NCBI RefSeq assembly: GCF_016765655.2
Contig: NZ_CP086106.1
Location: 4,920,501-4,984,500 of the forward strand
Direction of reading: 5' to 3'
DNA: 64,000 nucleotides
From: Skermanella mucosa
Lineage (GTDB): Bacteria > Pseudomonadota > Alphaproteobacteria > Azospirillales > Azospirillaceae
The notes beneath the pieces were generated by a model. It had not been told where the DNA came from. It saw only the letters and a program-made list of their open reading frames with translations, and ran no database searches. The translations under genes and the position numbers were made by a program. Every line of letters starts with the position of its first letter. Position 1 is the stretch's first letter. Below are positions 33,476-54,781 of the stretch, one piece after another.

Positions 33476-33662
33476 GCCATTCATCCCGATTTCCACCTCG
33501 GCTCGTGCATGACGGGCTGCGCGGGAATCCGCTGACCGAAGCCGAAGCGCGTTACCTTGCACCAGAAGGCATTGTCATTTCAGAATGACTCAACGCAAGC
33601 TGTCTCCGTCAGACTCGGTGCGGTTCAATATCGGTGCAGGCGAGTGCGTCATCTTATCGGCC

Positions 33663-35717
33663 CTAGTAATGATCAAGGGCTTTCTTTAGTGCCTCTCGCG
33701 CCGAGGGATCAAGCTGCTCACCCTTAGCTACTAGCACCTTATCAAAACGACGGAACAAGTCTTCCGTACCTGCGAAAAACTCAAAGTCGGCGTGGCCCAT
33801 TAGGTAATTTCCTCCGCAACTCAGGATCGCGAAGCTGACCAGGGCGTCATCATCCGTGCGGAGCGCGTCAGCTAGCCAATCCCGACATTCGGCGTTCCAC
33901 CGGCCGACCTCCTTCATAAGGAACAACGGCTCAACAGTGGGCAGCCGAGCAAGCAGATCACCGCGCGCATGATCTTTGTATGCTGCATCAGCGAGGCGCC
34001 CGGCGTAAGCACTAACGGCCTCTGGGGACAGGATGCACAGATGATTTTCCCCTTTGCTCTTGCCATACAGGCCATACCCGAAGAAATGATGGCGAAGGAT
34101 GGAAGTGGCGAAGGCGTAGTGACGGCGAGCGATCAGCTCCTCAAGAACAGCTGGAATATGCTGCGCCAGCTTGGTTGAATTGCCCTTTATATGTCGAAGT
34201 AAGACATCCTTAAAGGCTCGAGACATCTCGGGAATTCCATCAAACCGGGTCAGCCATCGTGGTTCAATGGGTTCAAGGAAGGAGCCAATACTGCGCCAAG
34301 TTCGGCATGGGTCCGGATCTTCCATCCCATGGTAGAGTTCGTGCAAGCGATCCACCAAGGAAGGCAGGCGATCATCCGCGATTCGTTGCCGGAGATCGGC
34401 CGTCATTGCCACTTCATCAAGGGTCAGGAATGCCTGGACATCCTTACGGGACACCCCTCCGGGAAGTAGGCCGAGACGCAAGACGGTTACCAATGGACGG
34501 CGATAGCGAATAGTATCTTCGGGAACCTCGCCGTGTATTATATTTTCACCGGTGAAGTGTGGGAAAAGGAACTTGAGGATTGGAACAATAACATCTGTGG
34601 GCATAACACCAAACGATTTTAGTTTCTCTTCCCGACTGACGTCACGGTTTTGGAGGTAGATGTTCATGGCCCGTGTTGCGAGTGGGTCAACCACCACTTC
34701 ATCGGGCCGACGTCGCAGTTGATCGACGAACTGGGGTGCTTTAGTGAGTAGAATGCAGTAGCCGAGAAGGTCCACCCACTCAACCTCGCCCTGCACCATT
34801 GGCGCCAGCACTGTGTAAGAGCCGACCATCCGTCTCACATCTCGCGGCGTCTCGATGATATTGCCAAGCGCGACATCCATCAGCATGGCGAAACGCGCGT
34901 CTTTGGACCAGTCCCGAGGCAGTCCTCCTTCACCCGAAAGTGCAGCCAATTCCGTCAGCATGAGTTCCCGCATCTCTACATCGAGCGAGACGGGCAACGG
35001 GACCTGCAACTGAACGATTTTCTCCAGGTACGCATTGCCACGCTCACCACCACCGAGCGCATGAATGACACGCTCGCGGTCGTATGCGAGCAAATACGAC
35101 AGGCCGGGAAAGTCTGCGACGGCGCGCACCAACTGCGCGACGGCGCGAACCTCGACATCTTCGACGCGATCGAGTTCGTCAATCAGCACGACGATTGGCA
35201 CCTCGACACCAGCAAGAGAGGTGATAAGGTCACTCCGTTGACTGGACAAGCTTTCCGTGCGATCAAAGGTTTGGCCGAGGGATTTCAGTGCCTCTCGTAG
35301 CCCTGGGATGGGCAGGCCGAGAAGTGCGGAAGCAGGAGCCAAATCGGCAGCATACTTTGCCAAGCGACCAGCAAGTTGAGTGGCCACTTTGCCGACCTGC
35401 GGGTTATTCGTTCCCACTTCCTTTATGCGTGCCAGCATCTCCTCGAAGAATTGGGTGATCAAGTCGTCGCGCTTGGAAACCAACCAAGGGTCGAACCGCA
35501 CGACCACGGCGGCTGGATAACGAAGCTCGATCTCCGCCTGCATCAAGTTGAGCAGGGAAGACTTGCCGCTGCCCCAAGGGCCGGTGATGCCGACTACTAC
35601 GCCGCGAGCATGACCGGTGGAATCGATGAGCGCATCGCAAAGGCGGCCGATGAACGGGCCACGTTCGAGGCGGTCGTGATCGGGGGAGGTGATCGGACGT
35701 TCCGAGCGCGTGGCCAT
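33663..35717 (-). CDS. KAP-family P-loop NTPase
   Basis: A 684-residue NTPase of the KAP group (STAND-related). Walker A is GPWGSGKSSLLNL near residue 50, Walker B is VVLIDELDRVED, and the sequence FDPWLVSKRDDLITQFFEEM is typical of KAP proteins. Unlike many KAP NTPases no transmembrane pair interrupts the P-loop domain, so it appears cytoplasmic. The rest (about 350-684) is helical and unrecognised. Codon use is less GC-biased than in the neighbours, suggesting recent transfer. KAP NTPases occur in phage-exclusion and other defence loci, so an antiviral role is possible but unproven. Confidence 0.85.
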   Translation of the reverse strand: MATRSERPITSPDHDRLERGPFIGRLCDALIDSTGHARGVVVGITGPWGSGKSSLLNLMQAEIELRYPAAVVVRFDPWLVSKRDDLITQFFEEMLARIKEVGTNNPQVGKVATQLAGRLAKYAADLAPASALLGLPIPGLREALKSLGQTFDRTESLSSQRSDLITSLAGVEVPIVVLIDELDRVEDVEVRAVAQLVRAVADFPGLSYLLAYDRERVIHALGGGERGNAYLEKIVQLQVPLPVSLDVEMRELMLTELAALSGEGGLPRDWSKDARFAMLMDVALGNIIETPRDVRRMVGSYTVLAPMVQGEVEWVDLLGYCILLTKAPQFVDQLRRRPDEVVVDPLATRAMNIYLQNRDVSREEKLKSFGVMPTDVIVPILKFLFPHFTGENIIHGEVPEDTIRYRRPLVTVLRLGLLPGGVSRKDVQAFLTLDEVAMTADLRQRIADDRLPSLVDRLHELYHGMEDPDPCRTWRSIGSFLEPIEPRWLTRFDGIPEMSRAFKDVLLRHIKGNSTKLAQHIPAVLEELIARRHYAFATSILRHHFFGYGLYGKSKGENHLCILSPEAVSAYAGRLADAAYKDHARGDLLARLPTVEPLFLMKEVGRWNAECRDWLADALRTDDDALVSFAILSCGGNYLMGHADFEFFAGTEDLFRRFDKVLVAKGEQLDPSAREALKKALDHY

Positions 35718-35733
35718 CTATACCCCAAAGGAA

Positions 35734-35774
35734 GGATAAATTTATCCAATAGTTAGAGGTATAGGTCACCACAA
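35734..35774 (-). promoter_or_regulatory. promoter and palindromic operator of the KAP gene
   Basis: On the minus strand TTGTGG (35774-35769), 17 bases and TATTGG (35751-35746) form a promoter candidate. A perfect 14-bp palindrome GGATAAATTTATCC (35747-35734) overlaps its -10 element and ends 16 bases before the ATG. This is the position of a repressor operator. Confidence 0.5.
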
Positions 35775-36206
35775 TCAATCGTAAACAGGTGCAGCGCTTG
35801 GATCTCGGGTGAACAACAAGTTATACCCTTTCCGCCCGAGAAGTTTTCTCATGGCGATATAAGGGAAGTGCGGGAATCATCGATTCGGCAAAGGCGTGAG
35901 TGCTCGTTTGAAAAATCATGGATGGGCGACTCTTCTGAGCATGAGTGCGCCCATGGCAAGGTATGTCATGCCGCCCGATACATCCTCAGCGCGAAATCGA
36001 CCATCTCGTTGGGTCATCCGCGTATCGAGATCTCGCCATCCTCAAAGCGCAGCAATGCGCAACACTGTTACAGGTTAGTTTACGATGCGGTAATGTCCCG
36101 GCAATCAAATCAACGAGGGATTTATCGCCGCAGTTGGTCAAAGCCATACGCGTGCCAACAACAATGACGAAGGCAGCGCCTTGAAGGAACATCGATCGTT
36201 TGAAAC
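35775..36206. other. lower-GC spacer between KAP gene and alkB-like gene
   Basis: This stretch of over 400 bases holds only short frames with no recognisable protein on either strand, the longest being about 99 codons on the plus strand (35868-36167) with an atypical composition. It may contain remnants of a decayed gene. No repeats, tRNA or terminal inverted repeats were seen. Confidence 0.5.
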
Positions 36207-36824
36207 ATGGGTTTTCCAGCCATGAGGCCCGATGTTTGCGGACCACTCCCCTTCGTGGAAGAGGTGCCGGTTCCGGGGCTCACCCTGATCGACGACTGGA
36301 TCGGCAAGTCGGATGAAGATCAATTGCTGGGTTTGGTTGACGCTGGCAATTGGCGAAACGACCTTAAACGCCGGGTGCAGCACTTCGGCTATCGCTATGA
36401 CTATCGCGCCCGCTCGGTTTCGCTCGCGGACCACCTGGGGCCGTTGCCGGGTTGGTTGGCCATGCTCGCCGGGCGCCTTGTCGACGGAGGCGCGTTCTCC
36501 AAACCGCCTGATCAGGTCATCATCAACGAGTACCTGCCGGGCCAGGGTATTTCAGCGCATATCGACTGCGTTCCGTGTTTCGGCGAGACCATCGCCATCC
36601 TCAGCCTTGGCGGTTCGACCGTCATGAAATTCCAGTGCTCCGCCAACGGCGCGGGGAGGGAATTGACGCTGCCGAATTGCAGTCTGCTGACGCTGATGGG
36701 GCCAGCGCGCTACGACTGGCTTCATGCGATCCCCGCAAGAATGTCCGACGTAATCGACGGCGTGAAAACGCCGCGCATCCGGCGGGTGTCCCTTACTTTC
36801 CGTTCAGTCAATATCGCCGCTTGA
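36207..36824 (+). CDS. AlkB-like 2-oxoglutarate/Fe(II) dioxygenase
   Basis: A 205-residue member of the AlkB family, which removes alkyl groups from DNA or RNA bases by oxidation. The iron ligands H118 and D120 (SAHID) and H173 (DWLHAIP) are present, together with the 2-oxoglutarate-binding arginines in RRVSLTFR. The substrate-lid region INEYLPGQGI is typical of the ALKBH8/AlkB2-like group found in proteobacteria. Neither candidate ATG (36207, 36222) has a clear ribosome site. It lies beside a KAP NTPase gene in the lower-GC patch and close to tRNA-Ser. Confidence 0.88.
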   Translation: MGFPAMRPDVCGPLPFVEEVPVPGLTLIDDWIGKSDEDQLLGLVDAGNWRNDLKRRVQHFGYRYDYRARSVSLADHLGPLPGWLAMLAGRLVDGGAFSKPPDQVIINEYLPGQGISAHIDCVPCFGETIAILSLGGSTVMKFQCSANGAGRELTLPNCSLLTLMGPARYDWLHAIPARMSDVIDGVKTPRIRRVSLTFRSVNIAA

Positions 36825-36944
36825 GCGTAAACTTGGTGGAGTCGTTTCAATGTGCCCCCGCCAGGGGAGCCGCATCTACGGTATCTTGCGGATTTATGCG
36901 CGACAGCGCGGAAAGGGCCGCATTCGCACGTAGTCATGCGCAAA

Positions 36945-37034
36945 TGGCGGACGGGGTGGGATTCGAACCCACGGTACCCTTGCAGGTACGCCGCATTTCG
37001 AGTGCGGTGCCTTCAACCACTCGACCACCCGTCC
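36945..37034 (-). tRNA. tRNA-Ser(CGA)
   Basis: A 90-base tRNA on the minus strand. The acceptor stem GGACGGG pairs with CCCGTCC, then G and an encoded CCA end. The anticodon stem-loop CCGCA-CTCGAAA-TGCGG gives anticodon CGA. A long variable arm (GTACC...GGTAC) and the GGTTCGAATCC T-loop confirm a class II serine tRNA. Its 3' end faces the lower-GC KAP/AlkB patch. Confidence 0.95.
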
Positions 37035-52923: not shown

Positions 52924-53337
52924 TCAGGCGGCCTTGGAGACCGTCAGCGCCTTCAGTTCGGCGACGCTTTCCTGGGTACGGGAGCTGATGACCGAATAGG
53001 CTTCCCGGCCGCCCTTGGCGGCGATCTCCGACAGTTCGCGGACCTGCGCGCTGACCTTGTCGGCCGTGGTCTTCGCCAGTTCCGCCTGCATGTTCAGGGT
53101 GGCCGGCAGATCCTTGACCGCCAGGACGGCCTTGGCGCTCTCCGCGGAATCCTTCAGGTTGGCCTCGGCGATCTCGACCTGACGCTTGATCAGGGACTGG
53201 GCCGTATCGGCGAAAATCCTGCCGACCTTGACCATGGCTTCGAAATTGCGGTTCTGCGCATCGATCAGCGCCTTGACGTCGACATTCGGAATTTGGCCAT
53301 TGAACAGCTTGCCGAAGTCGAAATTGTTCTGGGACAT
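52924..53337 (-). CDS. phasin family protein
   Basis: A 137-residue amphipathic helical protein of the Phasin_2 type that coats polyhydroxyalkanoate granules. Features are VDVKALIDAQNRNFEAMVKVGRI near the start and a heptad-rich centre without cysteine or tryptophan. GGAG lies 9 bases before the ATG at 53337; an in-frame ATG at 53361 lacks one. PHA storage is usual in Azospirillum-type bacteria. Confidence 0.88.
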   Translation of the reverse strand: MSQNNFDFGKLFNGQIPNVDVKALIDAQNRNFEAMVKVGRIFADTAQSLIKRQVEIAEANLKDSAESAKAVLAVKDLPATLNMQAELAKTTADKVSAQVRELSEIAAKGGREAYSVISSRTQESVAELKALTVSKAA

Positions 53338-53739
53338 CTGTTGGAACTCCAATAGTTTCATTCTTGTTGCACCGCAGCAAACTGATGTAGCTTTTATAAA
53401 TGCCGTTCCGATGCTTTGCCAACATGGAATCGCACACCCCGATCATCGAACGGCACCGGCAGACAATTTGCCGCAGGCAAGCTCAGGAATGACAGACAAA
53501 CAGGGCGTTCCGAGTAGACCGGACGAGGAAAGGCATCCAGAACGGCAAAGGCGCTTCGTCTAATACTTACGCTTCACCTTTAATAGACCGACTTGTTTGT
53601 ATTTATCATGGGCCGAAGTCCGTCAGCTACCCCTTTCGAGGCATTTTATTTTTACAACATGTGCTATCGATACAACATCTTTGCTTGCTGGCGGAACGGC
53701 CGCCGCTGTAGAAGGAGAAAACAGGCCAGGGAGCGGACG
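53338..53739. other. 402-base divergent intergenic region
   Basis: It contains the opposing promoters of the phasin and CHAP genes in unusually AT-rich sequence (for example 53560-53680). I see no conserved small gene or structured RNA here. GGGAG before 53740 is the CHAP ribosome site. Confidence 0.4.
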
Positions 53740-54243
53740 ATGCCTTTTCTCCGGTTGACGACGTCGGGAGTTGCCGCGGTTCTATTCTCTCTGACGGCCC
53801 TGTCGCTGTCCGGACCGGCCTTGGCCGGTTACGTGAACTGCGTCCAGTTCGTCAGGCAAGCGGGCGCGATCGAACTCTCGGGCAATGCCTGGATGTGGTG
53901 GCCCCACGCCAAGGGGCGATACGAAACGGGACAGCATCCCCACCGTGACGCCGTGATGGTCTTCCGGCGGACCAAGGCGATGCCGTTCGGCCACGTGGCC
54001 CTGGTAAGACATGTGCTGGATTCGCGCACGATCGTGGTGGAGCACGCCAACTGGGCGCCGCGCGGCGGTGCCAAGGGCCGGATCTCGCGGGACCTGGTCC
54101 GGGACGTCTCCCCCGGCAACGACTGGACGGCGGTACGGGTCATGTACCGGCCGACGGGAAGCTACGGAAAGGTGTACCCCGCCGATGGCTTCATCCACCC
54201 CAATCCGCCCGACTCCTTCGCCGCTCCGATCATCGAGCCCTGA
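53740..54243 (+). CDS. secreted CHAP domain protein
   Basis: A 167-residue exported protein with a signal peptide ending near GPALAGY. The mature part has a CHAP amidase/endopeptidase core: the cysteine in YVNCVQFVRQAG directly after the signal, the histidine in FGHVALVRHV and the acidic partner in VVEHANW. Proteins of this shape cleave murein peptides or are inhibitors/relatives of such enzymes. It is monocistronic and has a long AT-rich upstream region. Confidence 0.82.
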   Translation: MPFLRLTTSGVAAVLFSLTALSLSGPALAGYVNCVQFVRQAGAIELSGNAWMWWPHAKGRYETGQHPHRDAVMVFRRTKAMPFGHVALVRHVLDSRTIVVEHANWAPRGGAKGRISRDLVRDVSPGNDWTAVRVMYRPTGSYGKVYPADGFIHPNPPDSFAAPIIEP

Positions 54244-54391
54244 CCGCCCGAATTACCCCCTCTGTGTCATTTTTGGGTAATTTGCTTCTCCATATAACTT
54301 TCTGCGTTGTCATACGATCGTCTGCATAGTACCAAAGCCATATCAGCTTTCGCCCAATGCATATTTGGCTAACAGAGTGGTGGTGGTGTCG

Positions 54392-54781
54392 ATGCAAGCG
54401 ACGAATATGGACACGGCATTGATTTGCCGTAACGTGACGGTCTCAGGACGCCGGACCAGCATTCGGATGGAGCAGGTGATGTGGACCTCGCTTACCGACA
54501 TTTGCCGGCGCGAGGAGCGGTCCATCAACGAGATCATCTCGATGATCGACGAGAAGCGGGCCGACACCAATCTCACGGCCGCGATCCGGGTTTTCCTGAT
54601 CTGCTATTTCCGGGATGCCTCGGCCTTCCAGAGCCTGCGCTTCGCCGGCATGGCGGAGGAGTCGGATTTCGACGTGAACGCTGACCCCTCCCCTGACGAA
54701 GGACTCCGGTGCGGCGCCCTGGTAAACTCGGCGCTCGACGTCGTCGGCCCGCGGCGCCCGGCGGCAAGCGACGGCAACTGA
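54392..54781 (+). CDS. ribbon-helix-helix domain protein
   Basis: A 129-residue protein. Residues about 12-70 form a ribbon-helix-helix module of the RHH_4 type: the DNA-contacting strand RRTSIRMEQVMW is followed by SLTDICRREERSINEIISMID and a second helix (LTAAIRVFLICYF). The rest is probably disordered. The start is uncertain between a TTG at 54365 and ATGs at 54392 and 54407. RHH_4 proteins are common in Rhodospirillales; most are presumed repressors with unknown targets. Confidence 0.75.
   Translation: MQATNMDTALICRNVTVSGRRTSIRMEQVMWTSLTDICRREERSINEIISMIDEKRADTNLTAAIRVFLICYFRDASAFQSLRFAGMAEESDFDVNADPSPDEGLRCGALVNSALDVVGPRRPAASDGN

Follow-up and report, generated by a model that had tools for sequence, protein, structure and literature searches.

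We analyzed a window of 64,000 nucleotides (G000:C1:4920501-4984500) from the 7.84-Mb genome of Skermanella mucosa. The window contains an insert whose only cargo is a KAP NTPase gene and an AlkB-like gene and which abuts a tRNA-Ser(CGA) gene. The features of the locus are as follows, in window coordinates.

33523..33633, no strand: left flank remnant, aligning to L037 5075-5186, beyond the MFS gene at L037 3583-4887
33634..36943, no strand: insert (island), low GC, 3310 bp, found only in S. mucosa among 5 congeners
33663..35717, minus strand: KAP P-loop NTPase, 684 aa, Pfam KAP_NTPase (PF07693) 2.7e-43, 148.7 bits, cut-off 20
35718..36206, no strand: intergenic region between the divergent KAP and AlkB genes, 489 bp
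36207..36824, plus strand: AlkB-like 2OG-Fe(II) dioxygenase, bacterial ALKBH8 type, 205 aa, Pfam 2OG-FeII_Oxy_2 3.1e-16
36945..37034, minus strand: tRNA-Ser(CGA), called by ARAGORN and Rfam RF00005, with its 3′ end at 36945, the junction

The original prediction, made from the letters of the window, had described a lower-GC patch at about 33.6 to 36.2 kb that held a 684-residue KAP NTPase without a membrane insert and a nucleic acid dealkylase, and we found all three. The GC content is 0.51 to 0.59 across about 33.5 to 36.2 kb, versus about 0.70 on the left side. Relative to the 52 other open reading frames (ORFs) of the window, the KAP gene has a GC content of 0.564 and a GC3 of 0.606 (z scores of -3.5 and -3.1), and the AlkB gene has a GC content of 0.607 and a GC3 of 0.728 (z scores of -2.3 and -1.5). 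The KAP gene is a clear composition outlier. The shift of the AlkB gene is mild and, because its z scores are only of this size, weak if taken alone. Elsewhere in the window, three ORFs in a row (52924-54781) have a GC content of 0.60 to 0.63, below that of their surroundings. In the intergenic region, we found small ORFs without a Pfam match, no Rfam match, and no similarity to the other fetched loci; an Rfam scan of the insert region gave the tRNA alone.

We placed the borders of the insert by comparison with G001 (L037), a sister species that keeps both flanks. Homology to G001 stops at window position 33633 and restarts at 36944, the base adjoining the tRNA 3′ end, and the 3310 bp in between correspond to 160 bp of unrelated sequence in G001. 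The patch thus ends at the 3′ end of tRNA-Ser(CGA), as had been proposed, but its left edge lies at 33634 and not at 33580. The MFS transporter gene is cleanly missing at window 33522/33523; it is present in G001 and G003, and fragments of it remain in G002. On its other side, tRNA-Ser(CGA) adjoins rplU-rpmA-obgE in the congeners.

The insert resembles a tRNA island in that it ends exactly at the tRNA 3′ end and is absent or replaced in relatives. It differs in lacking the integrase and the duplicated tRNA 3′ end (attL/attR) of such islands: a Pfam search of the insert recovered no recombinase, and the window yielded neither an integrase nor a second copy of the tRNA 3′ end, so we rejected a classical att site. 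We also rejected a degraded integrase of the Azospirillum type, for which tblastn gave nothing significant in the window, and a phage origin, for which about 50,700 phage records gave no match to KAP or AlkB. In the congeners, the tRNA-Ser locus is nearly empty (the 160 bp of G001) or otherwise occupied. This comparison supports the view that the patch is a horizontally acquired island at the 3′ end of tRNA-Ser(CGA).

In every congener, homology breaks off at the 3′ end of the tRNA, and the sequence beyond it differs in each. At the same nucleotide, G002 carries a dynamin-like GTPase pair (PADLOC LeoBC, 377 bits; LeoA, 254 bits), and G003 carries a DUF4365 protein with a partner (PADLOC PDC-M02B, 373 bits; PDC-M02A, 163 bits). 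In G004, an unrelated GDSL/RTX-repeat gene lies about 0.5 kb from the tRNA, and the left flank is rearranged. The LeoBC/LeoA-like pair of G002 spans L038 4384-8355 and 8348-10111, with no integrase found, and the PADLOC candidate PDC-M02A/B of G003 spans L039 11474-12619 and 12610-13128. We found no recombinase in any of three inserts, those of the window, G002, and G003, which come from three sister species including S. mucosa. In more distant relatives, tRNA-Ser(CGA) still adjoins rplU, and recombinases lie on its 3′ side in four relatives of other genera. A tyrosine integrase starts 78 bp from the tRNA in L069, a P4-type integrase lies about 7 kb from it in L071, L074 has a truncated P4-type integrase, and a serine recombinase overlaps the tRNA end in L077. 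Because the cargo varies across the congeners and recombinases occur 3′ of the tRNA in these four relatives, the 3′ end of tRNA-Ser(CGA) is a recurrent insertion target.

Previous work demonstrated that tRNA genes host 18 of the 41 defense hotspots of Escherichia coli (PMC10121019). The feature shared with those tRNA-anchored hotspots is variable defense cargo adjoining a tRNA gene. In contrast to them, the site described here lies in an alphaproteobacterial genus, at tRNA-Ser(CGA)-rplU, and no integrase was found in the three sister-species inserts. Many hotspots reportedly lack integrases, and double recombination in the flanking core genes is a proposed route into them (PMC5635113). At this site, each of two sister species holds virus defense genes of another kind, so the S. 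mucosa island, with its probable anti-virus ATPase, adds a further occupant to a known type of defense hotspot. The same observation bears on a neutral-remnant reading, in which the island has decayed and the genes left in it are not selected for any function at this position. The lack of an integrase and att repeat, together with the loss of the neighboring MFS gene, would fit such decay. However, the KAP and AlkB ORFs are intact with all catalytic motifs present, and the sister species hold defense-type cargo at the same position. We consider a neutral remnant distinctly unlikely.

The AlkB-like protein has the human ALKBH8 structure 3thp as its best PDB match (7.5e-24, 87.6 bits), followed by ALKBH6 at 48.5 bits. 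Its oxygenase domain is thus closest to ALKBH8, and the catalytic residues are present (HxD at 118-120, H173, and R193/R199 of RxxxxxR), which places it in the ALKBH8 type. Like the bacterial ALKBH8-type proteins of Rhizobium etli and Roseobacter denitrificans, it has the ALKBH8-like oxygenase domain without an RRM or Zn finger. The ALKBH8 type is one of four bacterial AlkB groups, and its tested members repair etheno adducts; in Agrobacterium, knockout of an ALKBH8-type gene left tRNA-Gly(UCC) modification unchanged (PMC4051686). Homologues of the AlkB gene are scattered. One with 59% identity lies at a different place in G004 (L042), and others are on plasmids, the closest being a 53% identical relative on the 5.8-kb R. 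denitrificans plasmid pTB4. The pTB4 gene (L080 983-1570) sits alongside a BrnT/BrnA pair.

The original prediction had suggested that KAP and AlkB could form a small defense or repair unit. In such a two-gene unit, KAP would restrict phage and AlkB would strip alkyl or modified-base marks from phage or host nucleic acid. The genes are indeed adjacent and divergent within one 3.3-kb insert. However, no AlkB gene was found around any of 18 KAP loci (up to 8 kb on each side, less at contig ends), and AlkB relatives occur without KAP, for example in G004 and on the 5.8-kb Roseobacter plasmid. The composition of AlkB is also milder than that of KAP, and AlkB has no PADLOC match. Because AlkB lies near no other KAP homologue examined, a joint unit is not supported, and we regard it as very improbable. 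For the same reason, AlkB most probably travels as an independent passenger, with a putative nucleic acid repair or RNA modification activity. The defense part of the suggestion held up better, as KAP homologues are associated with defense genes (see below).

We therefore treat KAP separately from its neighbor. Its Walker A (residue 46) and Walker B (residue 176) motifs are intact and conserved in 20 homologues. Many KAP NTPases, but not all, carry transmembrane segments within the NTPase domain, and such segments are not required. We found no transmembrane segment in the window KAP, whose 19-residue hydropathy peaks at 1.75, over the Walker B strand. In the AF2 model (pLDDT, 82), the N-terminal half is AAA+-like, and the C-terminal half is all-helical and has no named domain. 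By fold, the closest PDB entries are RdrA of RADAR (E value, 6e-5; TM score, 0.32 to 0.39) and Orc/Cdc6 proteins; sequence searches of solved structures gave no convincing match. Because the TM scores are low and the likeness lies mainly in the AAA+ core, the fold matches support only a putative AAA+-type machine. Counting S. mucosa itself, 1 of the 5 congeners and 6 of the 82 genomes of the order carry a KAP homologue; the four other congeners gave none. In a phylogenetic tree, the window KAP is sister to the Azospirillum KAPs (100/99) and falls within a 17-member clade (100/99) that does not include PifA; the position of some outer members, on long branches, is uncertain.

PifA is the KAP NTPase of the F plasmid that excludes phage T7, and the KAPs PifA, Tmn, and QatA are known defense proteins. 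The PADLOC PifA model (PDLC02361) matched the window KAP at 3e-72 and 242 bits, but only over positions 5-346 of its 720, while a plasmid PifA scored 868 bits over profile positions 4-718. Control KAPs scored similarly to the window KAP: four from related genomes gave 206 to 410 bits, and generic KAPs gave about 170 to 260 bits, in most cases from the N-terminal domain only. Because generic KAPs score in the same range, matches to this model should not be read as PifA, and with the tree setting the clade apart (100/99) we rejected PifA as the identity of the window KAP. The two do share a KAP P-loop domain, a single-gene arrangement, a mobile DNA context, and, for a plasmid PifA, about 30% identity over residues 39-407. 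They differ in that the C-terminal half of the window KAP is unmatched by the PifA model and PifA is plasmid borne and adjoins pifC. Tmn is also a KAP NTPase and acts as a single-gene defense (PMC11846954), but it has transmembrane segments, which the window KAP lacks; it is not a Tmn. Similarity to QatA of QatABCD is in the N-terminal P-loop/KAP region (38 to 47 bits), but the score of 38.3 bits is far under the curated cut-off of 600, QatB to QatD are missing from the insert, and KAP is not a QatA. RdrA, like KAP, is an AAA+ ATPase with a long helical C-terminal part, but at the TM scores given above, about 10 to 13% identity, and no RdrB, this is a resemblance only. KAP NTPases are already known in defense, and the window KAP belongs to a separate clade among them. 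The patch had been called possibly undescribed, which is correct only in part.

We scanned 92 neighbors of KAP homologues with PADLOC and matched 102 families at 1e-10; many of these models overlap on the same small set of proteins. A small control of 64 proteins, drawn from the window and L042 and unmatched by genome, yielded no complete system and matched five families, each of them generic. In Pseudomonas fluorescens H24, the Septu genes PtuB and then PtuA lie less than 300 bp downstream of the KAP homologue on the other strand (L052), and in P. aylmerensis the homologue has IetA-IetS immediately upstream, in the same orientation (L061). Both KAPs belong to the 100/99 clade. These were the only two loci to which complete systems could be assigned; near most of the clade members examined, no PADLOC system was found. 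A ThsB match among the neighbors was placed at no locus by two rescans, and we did not count it as a located system. The two loci support an association of KAP homologues with defense loci (Septu and IetAS), as had been anticipated. The locus is also neither syntenic in all relatives nor of normal composition, in line with the original prediction.

A different kind of neighbor was found in Azospirillum. In L043, L044, L045, and L048, the start of a tyrosine recombinase gene overlaps the KAP stop or comes immediately after it (L043 10001-13465, L044 7992-11455, and L048 7977-13854). In A. lipoferum, two tandem KAPs precede the tyrosine recombinase gene. In two Azospirillum species, a gene family without a Pfam match is divergent from KAP (L044 6562-7896 and L048 6502-7158). 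On plasmid p4 of A. brasilense Sp7, KAP is divergent from an upstream gene set encoding a Mu-type transposase, TniB, and TniQ. This linkage raises the main rival to a defense role, that KAP is an accessory ATPase that assists a tyrosine recombinase or Tni-type transposition and that stayed here when the recombinase was lost. However, in Bradyrhizobium, Mesorhizobium, Pseudomonas, and other genera, the KAPs of the clade have no adjacent recombinase of the Azospirillum-type family, and two clade members adjoin complete defense systems. We consider a recombination accessory unlikely. Since the Azospirillum kin adjoin a tyrosine recombinase and some others of the clade are neighbors of Septu or IetAS, the evidence supports a reading of KAP as a putative mobile, single-gene anti-phage NTPase.

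Taken together, these data suggest, with modest confidence, that the patch is an integrase-free, defense-type cassette in which the active part would be a soluble KAP NTPase acting alone and AlkB would be a passenger. An anti-phage role for KAP is, on the combined testimony of clade, neighbors, and site, somewhat favored. According to this model, a small genomic island without an integrase entered the genome beside tRNA-Ser(CGA), at its 3′ end, and the working part of the island would be KAP as an ATP-driven, single-protein sensor and effector. We infer that phage would trigger NTP-dependent assembly of the AAA+-like domain, following the logic of PifA or of another KAP defense ATPase. The helical C-terminal half may serve as the sensor or effector, and the outcome would be halted phage growth or host shutdown. 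The element may once have had a recombinase that has since been lost. Weighing against this model are the breadth of the KAP family, the small number of clade members near a PADLOC system, the N-terminal-only match to the PifA model, the low TM scores, a C-terminal half with no named domain, and an insert without an att repeat or integrase, which leaves its mode of entry presumptive. More tentatively, the clade might represent an undescribed single-gene KAP defense system that differs from PifA, Tmn, and QatA and that current profiles reach through the ATPase domain alone. In Azospirillum it would spread as an element of KAP plus tyrosine recombinase, and at the 3′ end of tRNA-Ser(CGA) it would be exchanged with other defense modules by an integrase-free route.

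The site adds a defense-type hotspot with nucleotide-exact borders and differing cargo in sister species, in a bacterial group in which few have been mapped. The PADLOC PifA model reaches this KAP clade through the ATPase domain only, and the predicted role can be tested with one gene. Three integrase-free inserts at a single tRNA end also make this a clear case for how such cargo swaps.
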